Assembly: GCA_016876035.1 (NCBI GenBank)
Contig: VGOE01000007.1
Coordinates: 1 to 48,912, forward strand
DNA from: Chloroflexota bacterium
Lineage (GTDB): Bacteria; Chloroflexota; Dehalococcoidia; UBA2247; RBG-13-53-26
Length of the DNA stretch: 48,912 bases
Direction: 5' to 3'
Shown here: in pieces, positions 31,658 through 36,913 of the stretch
How the letters are laid out: each line of letters begins with the position of its first letter
Numbering within the stretch: the stretch's first letter is position 1
Program-made: the position numbers and the translations under genes
Notes under the pieces: generated by a model
What the model was told of the DNA's origin: nothing
Databases searched by the model: none
Seen by the model: the letters and a program-made list of their open reading frames with translations, nothing else

Positions 31658-32980
31658 TCATTTGGTTGAGCCTTCAGGGCCAAAGGCCTGAAGGACTTTG
31701 TGGTGAAGATATGGTTTGAACGCAGTCTCCACTGCCACAACTTCCTCGTTTCTTAGCCTTCGGTTCAGTTCCAAGAATGCGCTCCTCGAAGAAAGAAACT
31801 CCTTTGAGCTCCGAAAGACTCTCCGCAACTCCAAAAAAATGACCCTTTCTGAGAAAGCCTCTTCGATCGCCAGACGGATTTCTTCGGGGTCAAGGATATC
31901 CTTTTTCGATAAGGTGTCAACGACTTGCTTAAGTCTATTAATGAGATTATCGAACAAGCGATCCATTCTCTCAAAATAGCCTTTTGCCTTGGGATAAATT
32001 TCGTCTACTGCCGCTTGTAATCCCATAAGCTCCATGGCTGAATCCATAGAATCCAATCCATCGCCCATCTCACTCAGGATGTGTGCGTACCCCTCAGGTT
32101 CTTCCTTGAGCAAGAACTTTTCCCTTGCTGTTTCATAGCTTTTGCGCCGAAAAAGCCCCAGTGCCGCCAATGCCCTGGACTTGTCTTCGTGGCCGTCTTG
32201 GTAGAACTTTTCAATGTCTCTTTCTTCTTGTTCCGAGATGAAATCAAACATCAGCCCCATGCTGGCGTTGTACAGCAGTTGCTTCCTGCAGTCAGCAACT
32301 TGCGTGGCAATCCTTCTGCTTTCCTCAGCCCGCAGATTGGACGATGTCTCTTTGATGTCCCGCAGTCTCTGTAGGAGCTCACCCAGCTCAACGCGTGAAT
32401 CTCCGTCCCAGCGTCCTTGGAAAGTGCTCAGACGGTCTCTAATCCATGCAAGGGACTCATTCACCCTGTCTCTGATCTCCTGAGTCATAAGAAGATAGAA
32501 TGATTGAGAGTTGAGGTCAAAAACCCTACCGAAACTGAGTTTCCCAGATTCTTGCACTACTCTGAATCGCACGTGCTGCCCTTGTTCCAGCTTCATACCT
32601 GGCAGGACCACAATCGCTCCCTCAATCACCCTGACCAGCGGATCCCCCTTTTTACCAAAGCCAAACACCTCACCTTCCATTACCTTAGTCTTTGTCAGCC
32701 CTGAGTTCACTCGGCGGTTCAGCTGATACCACACAGGCAGTATTCTTTCCGTCGCTTGCTCAAAGGCACGCTGAAACTTCTCTCTCTGTCCCTCCTTATT
32801 CTGAACAGGCAGGTTTTCGATGCTCTTCTCAATCGTCGCTCTCCCCTCCCGGAGCAGTTGTGAGATGCGCATGTAGGGATCGAACATGGCCTCATAGTCA
32901 ACCTTCTCAGCGGCCCCCGCCAGAACCTTGTAGTCCTCGCTTGAAGCAATCTCCTTCAATACCTTAGTCGTCTGAGTCAC
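31658..32980 (-). CDS. TRAM-domain, coiled-coil-rich protein of unknown function
   Basis: A 440-residue soluble protein. Residues 1-98 are helical. Residues about 100-157 ('MEGEVFGFGKKGD' through 'LEQGQHVRFRVVQESGKLSFGRVFD', in outline) have the pattern of a TRAM-type five-stranded RNA-binding barrel, as in MiaB and RumA. Residues about 165-440 are strongly helical and heptad-rich, with many Glu/Arg, likely coiled coil. No catalytic motif is seen. GTG start with AGGAGGT about 10 nt upstream. A TATACT box lies near 33040-33048 on the minus strand. I do not recognise a named family. An RNA-associated structural or regulatory role is a guess. Confidence 0.75.
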   Translation of the reverse strand: MTQTTKVLKEIASSEDYKVLAGAAEKVDYEAMFDPYMRISQLLREGRATIEKSIENLPVQNKEGQREKFQRAFEQATERILPVWYQLNRRVNSGLTKTKVMEGEVFGFGKKGDPLVRVIEGAIVVLPGMKLEQGQHVRFRVVQESGKLSFGRVFDLNSQSFYLLMTQEIRDRVNESLAWIRDRLSTFQGRWDGDSRVELGELLQRLRDIKETSSNLRAEESRRIATQVADCRKQLLYNASMGLMFDFISEQEERDIEKFYQDGHEDKSRALAALGLFRRKSYETAREKFLLKEEPEGYAHILSEMGDGLDSMDSAMELMGLQAAVDEIYPKAKGYFERMDRLFDNLINRLKQVVDTLSKKDILDPEEIRLAIEEAFSERVIFLELRRVFRSSKEFLSSRSAFLELNRRLRNEEVVAVETAFKPYLHHKVLQAFGPEGSTK

Positions 32981-33247
32981 CCGATAAGGACCTCCTGCTT
33001 CCTAGAATCATCCTCAAAACTACCCTTGCCTGCTAGACTATCAGTATACCACGATCGCAGGCAATTTCTCACCCGTCGCCGCTCCCCCATCCCTCTCGCG
33101 CCCACAACCTCAAACGCTTGAGAGGTCTATCGATGTGCCATCTGCTTTTCACCCCGACCCGGCTAGCACGCATATTGTGTGTAAGCAGAGGGGCGTACCT
33201 TTCTAGCCATCACAGAAAAAGATCTCAAAAAGGTCGAATCGGGGGTA

Positions 33248-33275
33248 TTGACAAATTTGCAATATGGTGTATCAT
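33248..33275 (+). promoter_or_regulatory. Sigma-70 promoter of the kamA operon
   Basis: A consensus TTGACA at 33248-33253 and TATCAT at 33270-33275 have a 16-nt spacer. It lies 325 nt before the kamA start, so the transcript has a long leader. The region 32981-33247 upstream otherwise holds only the divergent promoter of the TRAM-domain gene. Confidence 0.7.
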
Positions 33276-33281
33276 AACATC

Positions 33282-33510
33282 AAAAGTAGTCTTGTCATTA
33301 GGATATTCTGCTACACGGTTTTGCTTCCGCCATTCTTGGATGTAGGCGGAGAAAGGATATAAGATCGCGTTTCCCCTTTATAGGGGAAGAGATAGATAAG
33401 ACAGGATGGATGTCGAAAGCAGGCTAAGGCCCGCGAAGATAGATAAAATAGTGGCGACAGATGAGAAACCCTGTTCTTACAAGTTGAGAACAGGGAATTT
33501 GTCTTTTTTC
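33282..33510 (+). ncRNA. Structured leader RNA / candidate riboswitch or attenuator of kamA
   Basis: A 5' leader of about 230 nt. It holds hairpin TCCGCC/GGCGGA (33326-33331 with 33345-33350), hairpin TTCCCC/GGGGAA (33371-33376 with 33383-33388), and a longer-range TGTCG/CGACA helix (33411-33415 with 33455-33459). TAAGACAGG at 33397-33405 can pair, with one bulged U, with CCTGTTCTTA at 33470-33479. That is the 5' arm of the terminator, so antiterminator and terminator exclude each other. The box AGATAGATAA occurs twice (around 33390 and 33439). I find no T-box, lysine-, SAM-, cobalamin- or c-di-GMP riboswitch signature. It could also be a stand-alone small RNA ending at the terminator. Confidence 0.6.
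33469..33509 (+). terminator. Intrinsic terminator in the kamA leader
   Basis: CCCTGTTCT, a 9-nt loop, then AGAACAGGG (33469-33495) form a perfect 9-bp stem, followed by AATTTGTC and six T. It lies about 90 nt upstream of kamA, so readthrough must be allowed for the operon to be expressed, as in transcription attenuation. The 5' arm has an alternative partner upstream. Confidence 0.8.
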
Positions 33511-33532
33511 AGGAGGTATAGGTAAGAGATTA

Positions 33533-33598
33533 GTGAAAAGCGAATCGTCGCTGTTGTGGTTTGTCAAAATTTTAAGAAACGAAGGAGGTGTTCAGTAG
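33533..33598 (+). CDS. Possible short upstream ORF ahead of kamA
   Basis: GTG at 33533 opens a 21-codon frame that ends in TAG at 33596-33598, two bases before the kamA ATG. It covers the kamA Shine-Dalgarno. A strong AGGAGG lies at 33511-33516, but it is 16 nt from the GTG, too far for normal initiation. This is therefore either a chance frame or a translation-coupling leader. Confidence 0.2.
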   Translation: MKSESSLLWFVKILRNEGGVQ

Positions 33599-33600
33599 CA

Positions 33601-34905
33601 ATGGCAACGTCTATGGGGGTCCAAGTTTCGAGTGAGGCCCGAGAGGAGCCTCCCCACGCAGTAGGGAGCGCCACCGAAGAGCCCCCAGGTAAAAGAGCGA
33701 GGGAAAACAGACAAAGATTCTTCGGCCACGTCTCCGAGGAACAGTGGAACGACTGGAAATGGCAATTTCGTAACCGAATCAACACTGTCCGTGAACTGGC
33801 ACACTTCATCCGCCTGTCAGATAAAGAACAGGCAAGACTCAGGCTGGTAACGGGCAAGTACCCCTTTTCAATCACCCCATACTATTTCTGTCTCATCGAC
33901 CAGAACAACCCTGACGACCCTGTTAGAAAGCAAACGGTCCCTTCTTTTGATGAAATAGCTTTCGCCTTTATGGGCGAAGCAGACCCTCTGGCAGAAGAAG
34001 AGGACTCCGTAGTGCCCGGGTTAGTGCATCGCTACCCGGACAGGGTTCTGATGGTGCTGACCAACATTTGCCCTGTTCTTTGCCGCCACTGCACCCGGAA
34101 GCGGGAGTGGCAGAGTGGCAGATGGGCACATACTGACGGCGAGATCGAGCTTATGTTGGACTACATTCGCAGGAACAAGGTTGTCAGGGACGTCATCATC
34201 TCCGGTGGTGACCCGCTATCTCTGGCCACTTCTCGCCTGGAAGAGGTCATTTCCCGGGTGAGGGCCATACCCCACGTGGAGATCATCCGGATTGGCACGC
34301 GCTTCCCTGTGGTACTGCCGCAGCGCATAGATGCGGAACTTTGTGCCATGCTGTCGAAATACGGGCCGATATGGATCAACACTCACTTTAACCATCCTGA
34401 TGAGGTAACCCCTGAGTCAGCGCTCGCCTGTGACAGGCTGGTGAGAAGCGGAGTCCCTCTCAACAACCAATCTGTTCTGTTGCGCGGGGTGAACGACTCT
34501 GTTGAGACGCAGACGAAGTTGTGCCGTGAGCTACTGAAGATAAAAGTGCGGCCATACTACCTCTTCCATGCCGACGAGGTGCAGGGGACCGAGCACCTGC
34601 GCACCACGATAGAAACAGGCATACAGATAATAGAGGGGATGCGCGGTCACACATCAGGTCTGGCTATTCCCACCTTTGTGGTTGATCTGCCCGGGGGTGG
34701 TGGAAAGGTCCCTCTTCAGCCCAATTACCTGGTTTCGAAGACCGATGGTGAGTTCGTATTAAGGAATTACGAGGGTCGCACCTTCACATGCCGGGACCCC
34801 GAGCCGTGGGGCGCGGATCGCCGCCCCGACACCCAGCAGCATCAGGAGCAGGTTCAGCCGGCTTCTCGTGAGGCTGTGGCCGCCTCGAAGGGGAGGGCCA
34901 AATGA
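33601..34905 (+). CDS. kamA: L-lysine 2,3-aminomutase
   Basis: A 434-residue radical SAM/PLP enzyme that interconverts L-alpha-lysine and L-beta-lysine. The cluster motif 'CPVLCRHC' is at 157-164. 'IISGGDPLSL' is at 199-208. The PLP lysine is K369 in 'VVDLPGGGGK'. The two acidic residues that in the clostridial enzyme grip the lysine epsilon-amino group both seem kept: D325 in 'YYLFHADEVQG' and D362 in 'TFVVDLPGG'. That favours lysine over glutamate as substrate. The first 35 residues are unconserved, and the C-terminal Cys cluster of the clostridial protein is missing. ATG at 33601 with AAGGAGGTG. It overlaps the first ATP-grasp gene by 4 nt. No beta-lysine acetyltransferase (ablB) is nearby. 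Confidence 0.92.
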   Translation: MATSMGVQVSSEAREEPPHAVGSATEEPPGKRARENRQRFFGHVSEEQWNDWKWQFRNRINTVRELAHFIRLSDKEQARLRLVTGKYPFSITPYYFCLIDQNNPDDPVRKQTVPSFDEIAFAFMGEADPLAEEEDSVVPGLVHRYPDRVLMVLTNICPVLCRHCTRKREWQSGRWAHTDGEIELMLDYIRRNKVVRDVIISGGDPLSLATSRLEEVISRVRAIPHVEIIRIGTRFPVVLPQRIDAELCAMLSKYGPIWINTHFNHPDEVTPESALACDRLVRSGVPLNNQSVLLRGVNDSVETQTKLCRELLKIKVRPYYLFHADEVQGTEHLRTTIETGIQIIEGMRGHTSGLAIPTFVVDLPGGGGKVPLQPNYLVSKTDGEFVLRNYEGRTFTCRDPEPWGADRRPDTQQHQEQVQPASREAVAASKGRAK

Positions 34906-35915
34906 AGGTTGGGCTAGCCTATGATCTCAAAGACGAAATAACCCTCCATCCGGAACATGCCGAGGACGCTCTGGAGGAATACGATTCTCCGGAGACGGTG
35001 GCAGCCATTGCTAAAGCACTGGAGTCATTGGGGCATTCGGTAGTGCGGCTGGGTGGAGGGCGGGAATTTCTAACGCATATCTTACAGGACAATGTCGACT
35101 TTGTTTTCAACATTGCGGAGGGGAGAGGCGTTTACAGGAGCCGGGAAGCCCAGGTGCCCTCTGTTCTGGAGATGCTGGGCATACCCTATTCGGGGTCAGA
35201 TCCGGAGTGCTTAGCCCTTTGCCTTGACAAGCCGCTAACCAAGAGAGTACTACAGGCAGCCGGCGTGGCTACTCCTCGATGGCAGGTGATCACCGACGGC
35301 CGCCAGCTAGAGGAATTAGCTTGGAACAACTTTCCCTTGCCTGGTTTTGTGAAACCAGCTTATGAGGGCTCAAGCAAGGGCATCCGCTTTGCTTCCAGGG
35401 TCGAAACCATGGAGCACATATGCCGAATGACAAGCATGCTGCTGGAACAGTACCAGCAGCCGGTGATGATAGAGGAGTTTATCTCCGGAGAAGAGGTAAC
35501 GATAGGTGTGGTAGGCTCGCCACCGCAGGTTCTCGGTATCATGCGTGTAGTTCCGAAGCGAGGTGGCAACCCGAACTTTACCTACTCCCTAGAGGTAAAG
35601 CGGGAATGGGAGGATGTGGTCAGCTATGAATGCCCGGCAAAATTATCAGTGAAAACAACGGAAGAGATTATCTGGGCAAGCCTTACAGCCTTCGAAGTGC
35701 TGGGGTGTCGCGACGTTGCCAGGATTGACTTTCGGGTGGACTTAGAGAAGAAACCCTGGCTGCTTGAGGTGAATCCCCTGCCTGGTCTCCGACCAGGTTA
35801 TAGCGACCTTCCTATGATGGCCGAGAGAGTGGGGTATAGTTACGACGCCCTCATCGGCCTGATAATGGATAGTGCTCTAAAGAGGCAAAGGCCGTGTCTG
35901 GCAAGATTGGCATAG
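34902..35915 (+). CDS. D-Ala-D-Ala-ligase-like ATP-grasp enzyme 1
   Basis: A 337-residue ATP-grasp ligase. The N-terminal domain has 'DVDFVFNIAEGRG'-like and 'VPSVLEMLGIPYSGSDPECLALCLDK' features (in outline), as in Ddl. The central ATP loop 'GFVKPAYEGSSKGI' keeps the Ser-Ser-Gly of Ddl. The metal site is 'ARIDFRVD' and 'LLEVNPLPGL'. The usual Ddl acceptor region is altered, so this is probably not the cell-wall Ddl but a relative joining other amino acids. It starts in an ATGA overlap with kamA. The neighbourhood suggests that beta-lysine could be one substrate; this is inference. Confidence 0.85.
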   Translation: MKVGLAYDLKDEITLHPEHAEDALEEYDSPETVAAIAKALESLGHSVVRLGGGREFLTHILQDNVDFVFNIAEGRGVYRSREAQVPSVLEMLGIPYSGSDPECLALCLDKPLTKRVLQAAGVATPRWQVITDGRQLEELAWNNFPLPGFVKPAYEGSSKGIRFASRVETMEHICRMTSMLLEQYQQPVMIEEFISGEEVTIGVVGSPPQVLGIMRVVPKRGGNPNFTYSLEVKREWEDVVSYECPAKLSVKTTEEIIWASLTAFEVLGCRDVARIDFRVDLEKKPWLLEVNPLPGLRPGYSDLPMMAERVGYSYDALIGLIMDSALKRQRPCLARLA

Positions 35916-36913
35916 TCTACAATGACCCTGTCCCGGGGGTGTACCACAACCTTGGTGAGGACGATGCGGTCGCGGGAATTCTTGACTCGGTAGCAGCGGT
36001 AAGTCAGGCACTGGAACACCTGGGCTATGAAGTGGTAACTCTCGCTCTTGGGCCGCCTCTGCCCCTGGCAGAGTCTGAGCTGAGAAAGCTCGACGTTGAT
36101 GCCGTATTCAACCTCTTCGAAGGGTTCGGCGGCGTGCCTCAAAGTGAGGCCACCGTGACATGTCTTCTGGAGACGATGGGGATCTGTTTTACCGGCTGTC
36201 CGAGCCAAGCTCTGCATCTGTGCGAGGACAAATCTCTGGCAAAGCAGGTCTTGCAGTCCTGGGACATACCCACCGCAAACTGGCAGGTGCTTGCCCCCAG
36301 CACCTGTACAGATTTTAACCTGAATTTTCCCTGCATCGTTAAGCCCCTGGGAGAGCATGCCAGCCATGGTATCTCAGCAAAGAGTATTGTACGCAGCCTT
36401 CAGGCTCTGCGCAGGCAATTGGAGCTCATCGATCAGAAGTATGGCCGGCCTTCACTAGTGGAGGAGTTCTTGCCCGGTAGGGAATTCTCTGCTCTGGTGG
36501 TAGGAAACTACAGTCTCAAGGTGTTTCCCATTGAGGAGATCATCTTTGCCTTACCCTCCACCAAGCCGCCTATACTGACCTATGGGGCAAAATGGGTTCG
36601 AGAAGACACGTATTTTGAAGGGACAAAAACGAAGTGTCCGGCTGACGTGGATCCCGAACTGAAGCAAGCTATAGATGATCTGGCACTACGCTGCTTCGTG
36701 GCGCTGGGATGCCGTGGTTATGCCAGAGTGGACATGAGACAGGATGCAGGGGGGCAACTCATGGTGCTCGACGTGAACCCCAATCCAGACATCTCGCAGG
36801 AGGGTGGGGCCAGGCACCAGGTGGAGGCCGCCGGCATTGCCTATGCCAGCTTTATCGGTGATATTGTATCTCTGGCAAAGGAGCACTTCGATTCAGCCAG
36901 GGTGACGGTTTGA
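35894..36913 (+). CDS. D-Ala-D-Ala-ligase-like ATP-grasp enzyme 2 (divergent)
   Basis: A 339-residue ATP-grasp protein, paralogous to the preceding one but clearly different. The N-terminus is 'KIGIVYNDP', with 'DAVFNLFEGFGG' and 'LLETMGICFTGCPSQAL'. The ATP loop 'CIVKPLGEHASHGIS' lacks the Ser-Ser of Ddl. The metal site is 'ARVDMRQD' and 'VLDVNPNPDIS', with Asp for the usual Glu. This arrangement resembles ligases of peptide or mycosporine-type natural product pathways more than Ddl. GTG start with AAGAGG 8 nt upstream, overlapping ligase 1 by 22 nt. Two successive ligases suggest a tripeptide-like or doubly conjugated product. Confidence 0.82.
   Translation: MSGKIGIVYNDPVPGVYHNLGEDDAVAGILDSVAAVSQALEHLGYEVVTLALGPPLPLAESELRKLDVDAVFNLFEGFGGVPQSEATVTCLLETMGICFTGCPSQALHLCEDKSLAKQVLQSWDIPTANWQVLAPSTCTDFNLNFPCIVKPLGEHASHGISAKSIVRSLQALRRQLELIDQKYGRPSLVEEFLPGREFSALVVGNYSLKVFPIEEIIFALPSTKPPILTYGAKWVREDTYFEGTKTKCPADVDPELKQAIDDLALRCFVALGCRGYARVDMRQDAGGQLMVLDVNPNPDISQEGGARHQVEAAGIAYASFIGDIVSLAKEHFDSARVTV

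Follow-up and report, generated by a model that had tools for sequence, protein, structure and literature searches.

A strong intrinsic terminator in an apparently lineage-specific kamA leader of Dehalococcoidia: possible attenuation of an aminomutase-ligase operon

Does the long leader in front of kamA in one genome of Dehalococcoidia carry a switch, or a terminator and little else? The DNA analysed here, referred to as the window, is a 48.9-kb stretch of contig G000:C7, and the nearest genomes available for comparison are nine from the same family, all of other genera. The original prediction saw in this leader a candidate new riboswitch or attenuator with two mutually exclusive folds. The gene downstream, kamA (33601-34905, plus strand), encodes a KamA-family radical SAM aminomutase according to its profile match. 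Its best model is lysine 2,3-aminomutase (473.5 bits against an equivalog cut-off of 525.4), and it also scores under the cut-offs of the glutamate and arginine aminomutase models. Because the score is under the lysine 2,3-aminomutase equivalog cut-off, the substrate is uncertain. A Shine-Dalgarno sequence, AGGAGG, is found at 33583-33588, 12 nt 5' of the ATG, and family members have a similarly long spacing. On the same strand follow two genes for D-Ala-D-Ala-ligase-like ATP-grasp proteins (34902-35915 and 35894-36913, both profile matches), and these two overlap end to start. The set (33601-36913) looks like a small pathway in which a beta-amino acid is joined to another compound, and literature searches found no report of an operon combining a KamA-type aminomutase with two D-Ala-D-Ala-ligase-like enzymes. 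At the N-terminus of KamA, before the conserved domain, (E/D)EPP(G/S) motifs are repeated (33601-33740 of the window; orthologues L017-L033 and L127-L182); this KamA group often has two copies, joined by a linker of variable length.

First, the layout of the leader is well defined. As predicted, a consensus promoter precedes kamA: a sigma-70-type TTGACA-N16-TATCAT at 33248-33275 on the plus strand, matching 11 of 12 consensus positions and of the same form as the kamA promoters of family members. In a promoter scan of 32900-33700 it was the sole promoter-like site on this strand, and none was recognised between the terminator and kamA. The region from the -10 box to the ATG, 33276-33600, forms a kamA 5' leader of 325 nt, with a putative transcription start at about 33282. 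Since the promoter of family members lies 100-117 nt before the start codon, it is consistent to regard the 33248 promoter as kamA's own, and we infer that it drives kamA.

The terminator had been placed at 33469-33509. The perfect inner hairpin and the U6 tract are there as described, but the extent has to be revised: folding and hairpin scanning both delineate a bipartite stem at 33456-33503 followed by U6 at 33504-33509, so that the whole terminator occupies 33456-33509 on the plus strand. The inner hairpin of 11 bp is CCCTGTTCTTA-CAAGT-TGAGAACAGGG (33469-33495), on which an outer 7-bp helix, GACAGAT/ATTTGTC (33456-33462/33497-33503), stacks, and six T follow in the DNA. Its folding energy is -19.1 to -20.3 kcal/mol. 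With a perfect hairpin of at least 11 bp followed by T6 as the criterion, it is unique in the window on both strands; a looser scan of the window was not discriminating. Shuffling the 421-nt region 2000 times gave a hairpin this good twice, and none of 10 shuffles of the whole window had one; in the ensemble of the full-length leader the terminator is dominant (mean pair probability 0.986). Thus, the terminator in the kamA leader is far beyond chance, and it is located where that of a leader attenuator would be, between the promoter and the first gene.

There is one promoter before this terminator, none is recognised after it, and the neighbouring gene is divergent, so read-through is the simplest way for kamA to be expressed, and attenuation by the leader is therefore the best explanation. 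On balance, we favour a lineage-specific 5' UTR whose strong intrinsic terminator attenuates the kamA-ddl-ddl operon. RNA polymerase would start at about 33282, most transcripts would stop at about 33505-33509, and the fraction reading through would give KamA and the two ATP-grasp ligases; termination in the leader would presumably be incomplete. The simplest form of such attenuation would be a fixed brake. Indeed, 3' ends inside 5' UTRs are described as common in bacteria (PMC7815308). The attenuator half of the original prediction is thus supported by the strong terminator, by the single promoter upstream of it and by the lack of any recognisable one from there to kamA. If, however, a non-consensus promoter lay in 33510-33600, kamA could be transcribed from it and the terminator would have no bearing on the gene.

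The main alternative to attenuation is a stand-alone small RNA gene of about 225 nt, with the promoter at 33248 and the terminator ending at 33509, while kamA is expressed from an unrecognised downstream promoter. A promoter and a terminator with no good open reading frame is indeed the layout of a small RNA gene, and the RNA has several predicted hairpins. However, no promoter-like site was seen from the terminator to kamA, the corresponding promoter of family members drives kamA directly, no conserved copy was found in the genomes searched, and 6S RNA has no match in the leader or elsewhere in the genome. A separate small RNA is thus unlikely.

Second, the proposed switch was compared with chance. 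It had been suggested that TAAGACAGG (33397-33405, plus strand) pairs with the terminator arm at 33470-33479 as an antiterminator. This pairing is possible (9 bp with one bulge, -8.8 kcal/mol), but when the upstream leader was dinucleotide-shuffled, 843 of 1000 sequences contained a segment pairing with the same arm at least as strongly, and the antiterminator fold (-53.8 kcal/mol) is less stable than the terminator fold (-68.5 kcal/mol) by 14.7 kcal/mol. Across modelled growing transcripts, its probability peaks at no more than 0.11. A competing antiterminator of similar strength, as expected of a riboswitch, was therefore not found. Given one good terminator, a "switchable terminator" that looks convincing by eye can be expected by chance.

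The same can be said of the fold upstream. The original prediction counted at least three helices in the leader, and helices are indeed predicted: stem-loop A (33316-33367), stem-loop B, UUUCCCC UUUAUA GGGGAAG (33370-33389), and a helix at 33411-33441, all on the plus strand and all by prediction only. Nevertheless, 33282-33455, the part before the terminator, has an unremarkable stability (z = -1.31) that 20 of 200 shuffles also reached, and it is largely the terminator that gives the full leader its z of -2.6. A structured receptor domain stabler than chance was not observed.

A metabolite riboswitch or other ligand-sensing leader would place an aptamer at 33289-33402, closed by a P1-like helix that overlaps the antiterminator arm, and act as an OFF switch for kamA. 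Its best argument is geometric. The P1-like helix (5' arm 33289-33296, plus strand, pairing with 33395-33402; 8 bp, -11.5 kcal/mol) encloses at least two local hairpins and shares 33397-33402 with the antiterminator arm, as is usual in terminator riboswitches. But this helix is not stable in the ensemble, where its probability ranged from 0.03 to 0.43 with transcript length, and a three-way overlap test left the real leader unscored while 11 of 200 shuffles passed. Together with the ordinary upstream stability and the chance-level antiterminator, this makes a riboswitch very unlikely. An orphan riboswitch or other conditional attenuator confined to this lineage, which would sense an amino acid (lysine, beta-lysine or glutamate) or a compound made by the kamA-ATP-grasp pathway and act on the terminator by way of the P1-like helix, is similarly unlikely.

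Third, relatives of the leader were sought. The covariance models of Rfam 15 (4227 families, including the lysine riboswitch, T-box, SAM and 6S RNAs) gave no match to the leader at their gathering scores and, with E relaxed to 10, nothing beyond a snoRNA hit of 13 bits (gathering score 88) that was put down to chance. This agrees with the original statement that no known riboswitch signature is present; an unconserved leader would give the same result. There is no second copy of the leader in its own genome. A repeat or mobile element was also considered and ruled out, with no copy in the same genome or in plasmid or phage records. By blastn against 100 close genomes and 393 Dehalococcoidia genomes, only matches of up to 34 nt were obtained, which were taken as chance. 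Model R1, a covariance model of this one leader sequence with its predicted fold, found no credible match except the leader itself among the 393 class genomes and among 19 kamA loci plus the window; the best other matches, 24.7 and 20.6 bits, have E of 0.006 and 0.06 for a single genome and are weak in a search across 393.

The gene itself is much more widespread, with a close kamA orthologue in 72 of the 393 class genomes. In the same family, the six readable kamA leaders are 100-117 nt long, carry no terminator and have T runs of at most 4; the leader in the window is about 215 nt longer. This speaks against the riboswitch reading. Among 74 other kamA upstream regions examined, this leader was absent from all, and a convincing leader terminator was found in one, L160 of genome G375. 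There, AGCGGAGGATAGTGAGATCCACCGCT-TTTTTT lies between a promoter and kamA, unrelated in sequence to that of the window, and by its sequence it appears to be a second, independent kamA leader terminator. From these comparisons, the leader of the window appears to be lineage-specific. Without homologues of the leader, covariation cannot be shown, and no conserved aptamer with covariation was found in the 393 class genomes, in the same genome or at the kamA loci. For this reason the riboswitch claim should be called unsupported, not disproved. In sum, nothing supports the new riboswitch with exclusive folds: the upstream part is ordinary in stability, the antiterminator is at chance level, and no homologue was found in the genome, family, order or class searched. 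No ligand can be inferred.

Such restricted distribution raises the question of whether the leader is simply a neutral or recent insertion or rearrangement, in which kamA came to a new place and gained about 215 nt of leader with no selected regulatory role. Its absence from the 74 related upstream regions may reflect such an event. Upstream of the leader lies a divergent gene of 440 aa (31658-32980, minus strand). This gene is present in two family members that have no kamA match, and family members having kamA are devoid of it. As the two are never together in these genomes, the kamA locus has been rearranged. Searches of plasmids, phages and class genomes gave no relative of the extra leader. 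In genomes lacking kamA, relatives of the divergent neighbour have no leader, so the leader belongs with kamA. However, full neutrality is unlikely since a terminator this good behind an intact promoter would lower expression of the operon, and we regard neutral insertion as quite unlikely. Near the divergent gene, AGTATACCACG (33030-33060; L203 and L204) is kept upstream of its counterparts in two other genera and is probably part of its promoter.

Attenuation may also be coupled to translation, if formation of the terminator depends on ribosomes occupying a 39-codon frame (33406-33525, plus strand) or a 5-codon frame (33410-33427). The longer frame stays open across the terminator, and a ribosome translating it would keep the hairpin from forming. 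However, no Shine-Dalgarno sequence at suitable spacing was found before it, and no homologue of the 39-aa frame was detected in 40 relatives or in Pfam. It has 4 Lys in 39 residues with no run of lysine codons, and such frames are common by chance. This mechanism is highly improbable. The leader also contains an imperfect 15-nt direct repeat, AGATAGATAARAYAG, in the copies AGATAGATAAGACAG and AGATAGATAAAATAG (33390-33404 and 33437-33451). As a protein-binding pair it was judged marginal, since 22 of 400 shuffles (about 5%) reach it.

A separate kamA-leader element was noticed in other families. About 60-90 nt are conserved at L192-L199 (genomes G367, G107, G245, G334, G355, G243, G022 and G364), four of the carriers belonging to family f47 and one each to f13, f64, f81 and f93, with an ungapped block of about 60 nt. 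It consists of an inverted repeat, CNTGTANATTRTAACANG, and, about 15 nt later, a possible second hairpin with an ACAAGT loop. In each of the seven genomes with an exact match, the repeat pattern has one mismatch-free occurrence, at kamA. Pairing is kept in 95% of cells for helix 1, with one A-U/C-G exchange, and in 72.5% for helix 2. The element is absent from Rfam, and its model, R2, retrieves only the eight members at E < 1e-5 among 393 genomes. In the window, the best R2 match has 11.8 bits (E = 3), and the pattern CMKGTADANTRTAACAKG is absent even with up to 3 mismatches allowed. The element may act as RNA or as a palindromic site for protein binding, the A-U/C-G exchange fitting both; judged by sequence, it is a candidate new cis-regulatory element, either RNA or operator.

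Thus, the terminator and the leader of the window are real, ordinary in kind and unconserved, with no evidence of switching, and there is no positive evidence that read-through is regulated by a ligand, a translated frame or a protein. If the terminator were conditional, it would be a regulatory handle on an operon for kamA and two D-Ala-D-Ala-ligase-like enzymes.

How does this leader compare with known systems? The rdhA motif is a riboswitch candidate found mostly in Dehalococcoides, before reductive dehalogenase genes (PMC11109978). It and the kamA leader are both candidate leader RNAs of the same bacterial class, compared here by gene context; the main text of that paper mentions neither kamA nor an aminomutase (PMC11109978). 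T-box and amino-acid leader-peptide attenuators likewise rely on terminators in the leaders of amino-acid genes, but the kamA leader has no T-box match and no Lys-run leader peptide having a Shine-Dalgarno sequence. The lysine riboswitch (L-box) could similarly use a leader terminator to regulate a lysine-related gene, whereas the kamA leader did not match it, either at the gathering score or with E relaxed to 10, and the enzyme is under the equivalog cut-off. Premature intrinsic terminators in 5' UTRs are mapped by 3'-end sequencing, whereas the kamA leader is known from its sequence alone, is unconserved and has no known regulator. Yet the two are alike in arrangement: a promoter, a non-coding leader, a strong intrinsic terminator and then a structural gene.
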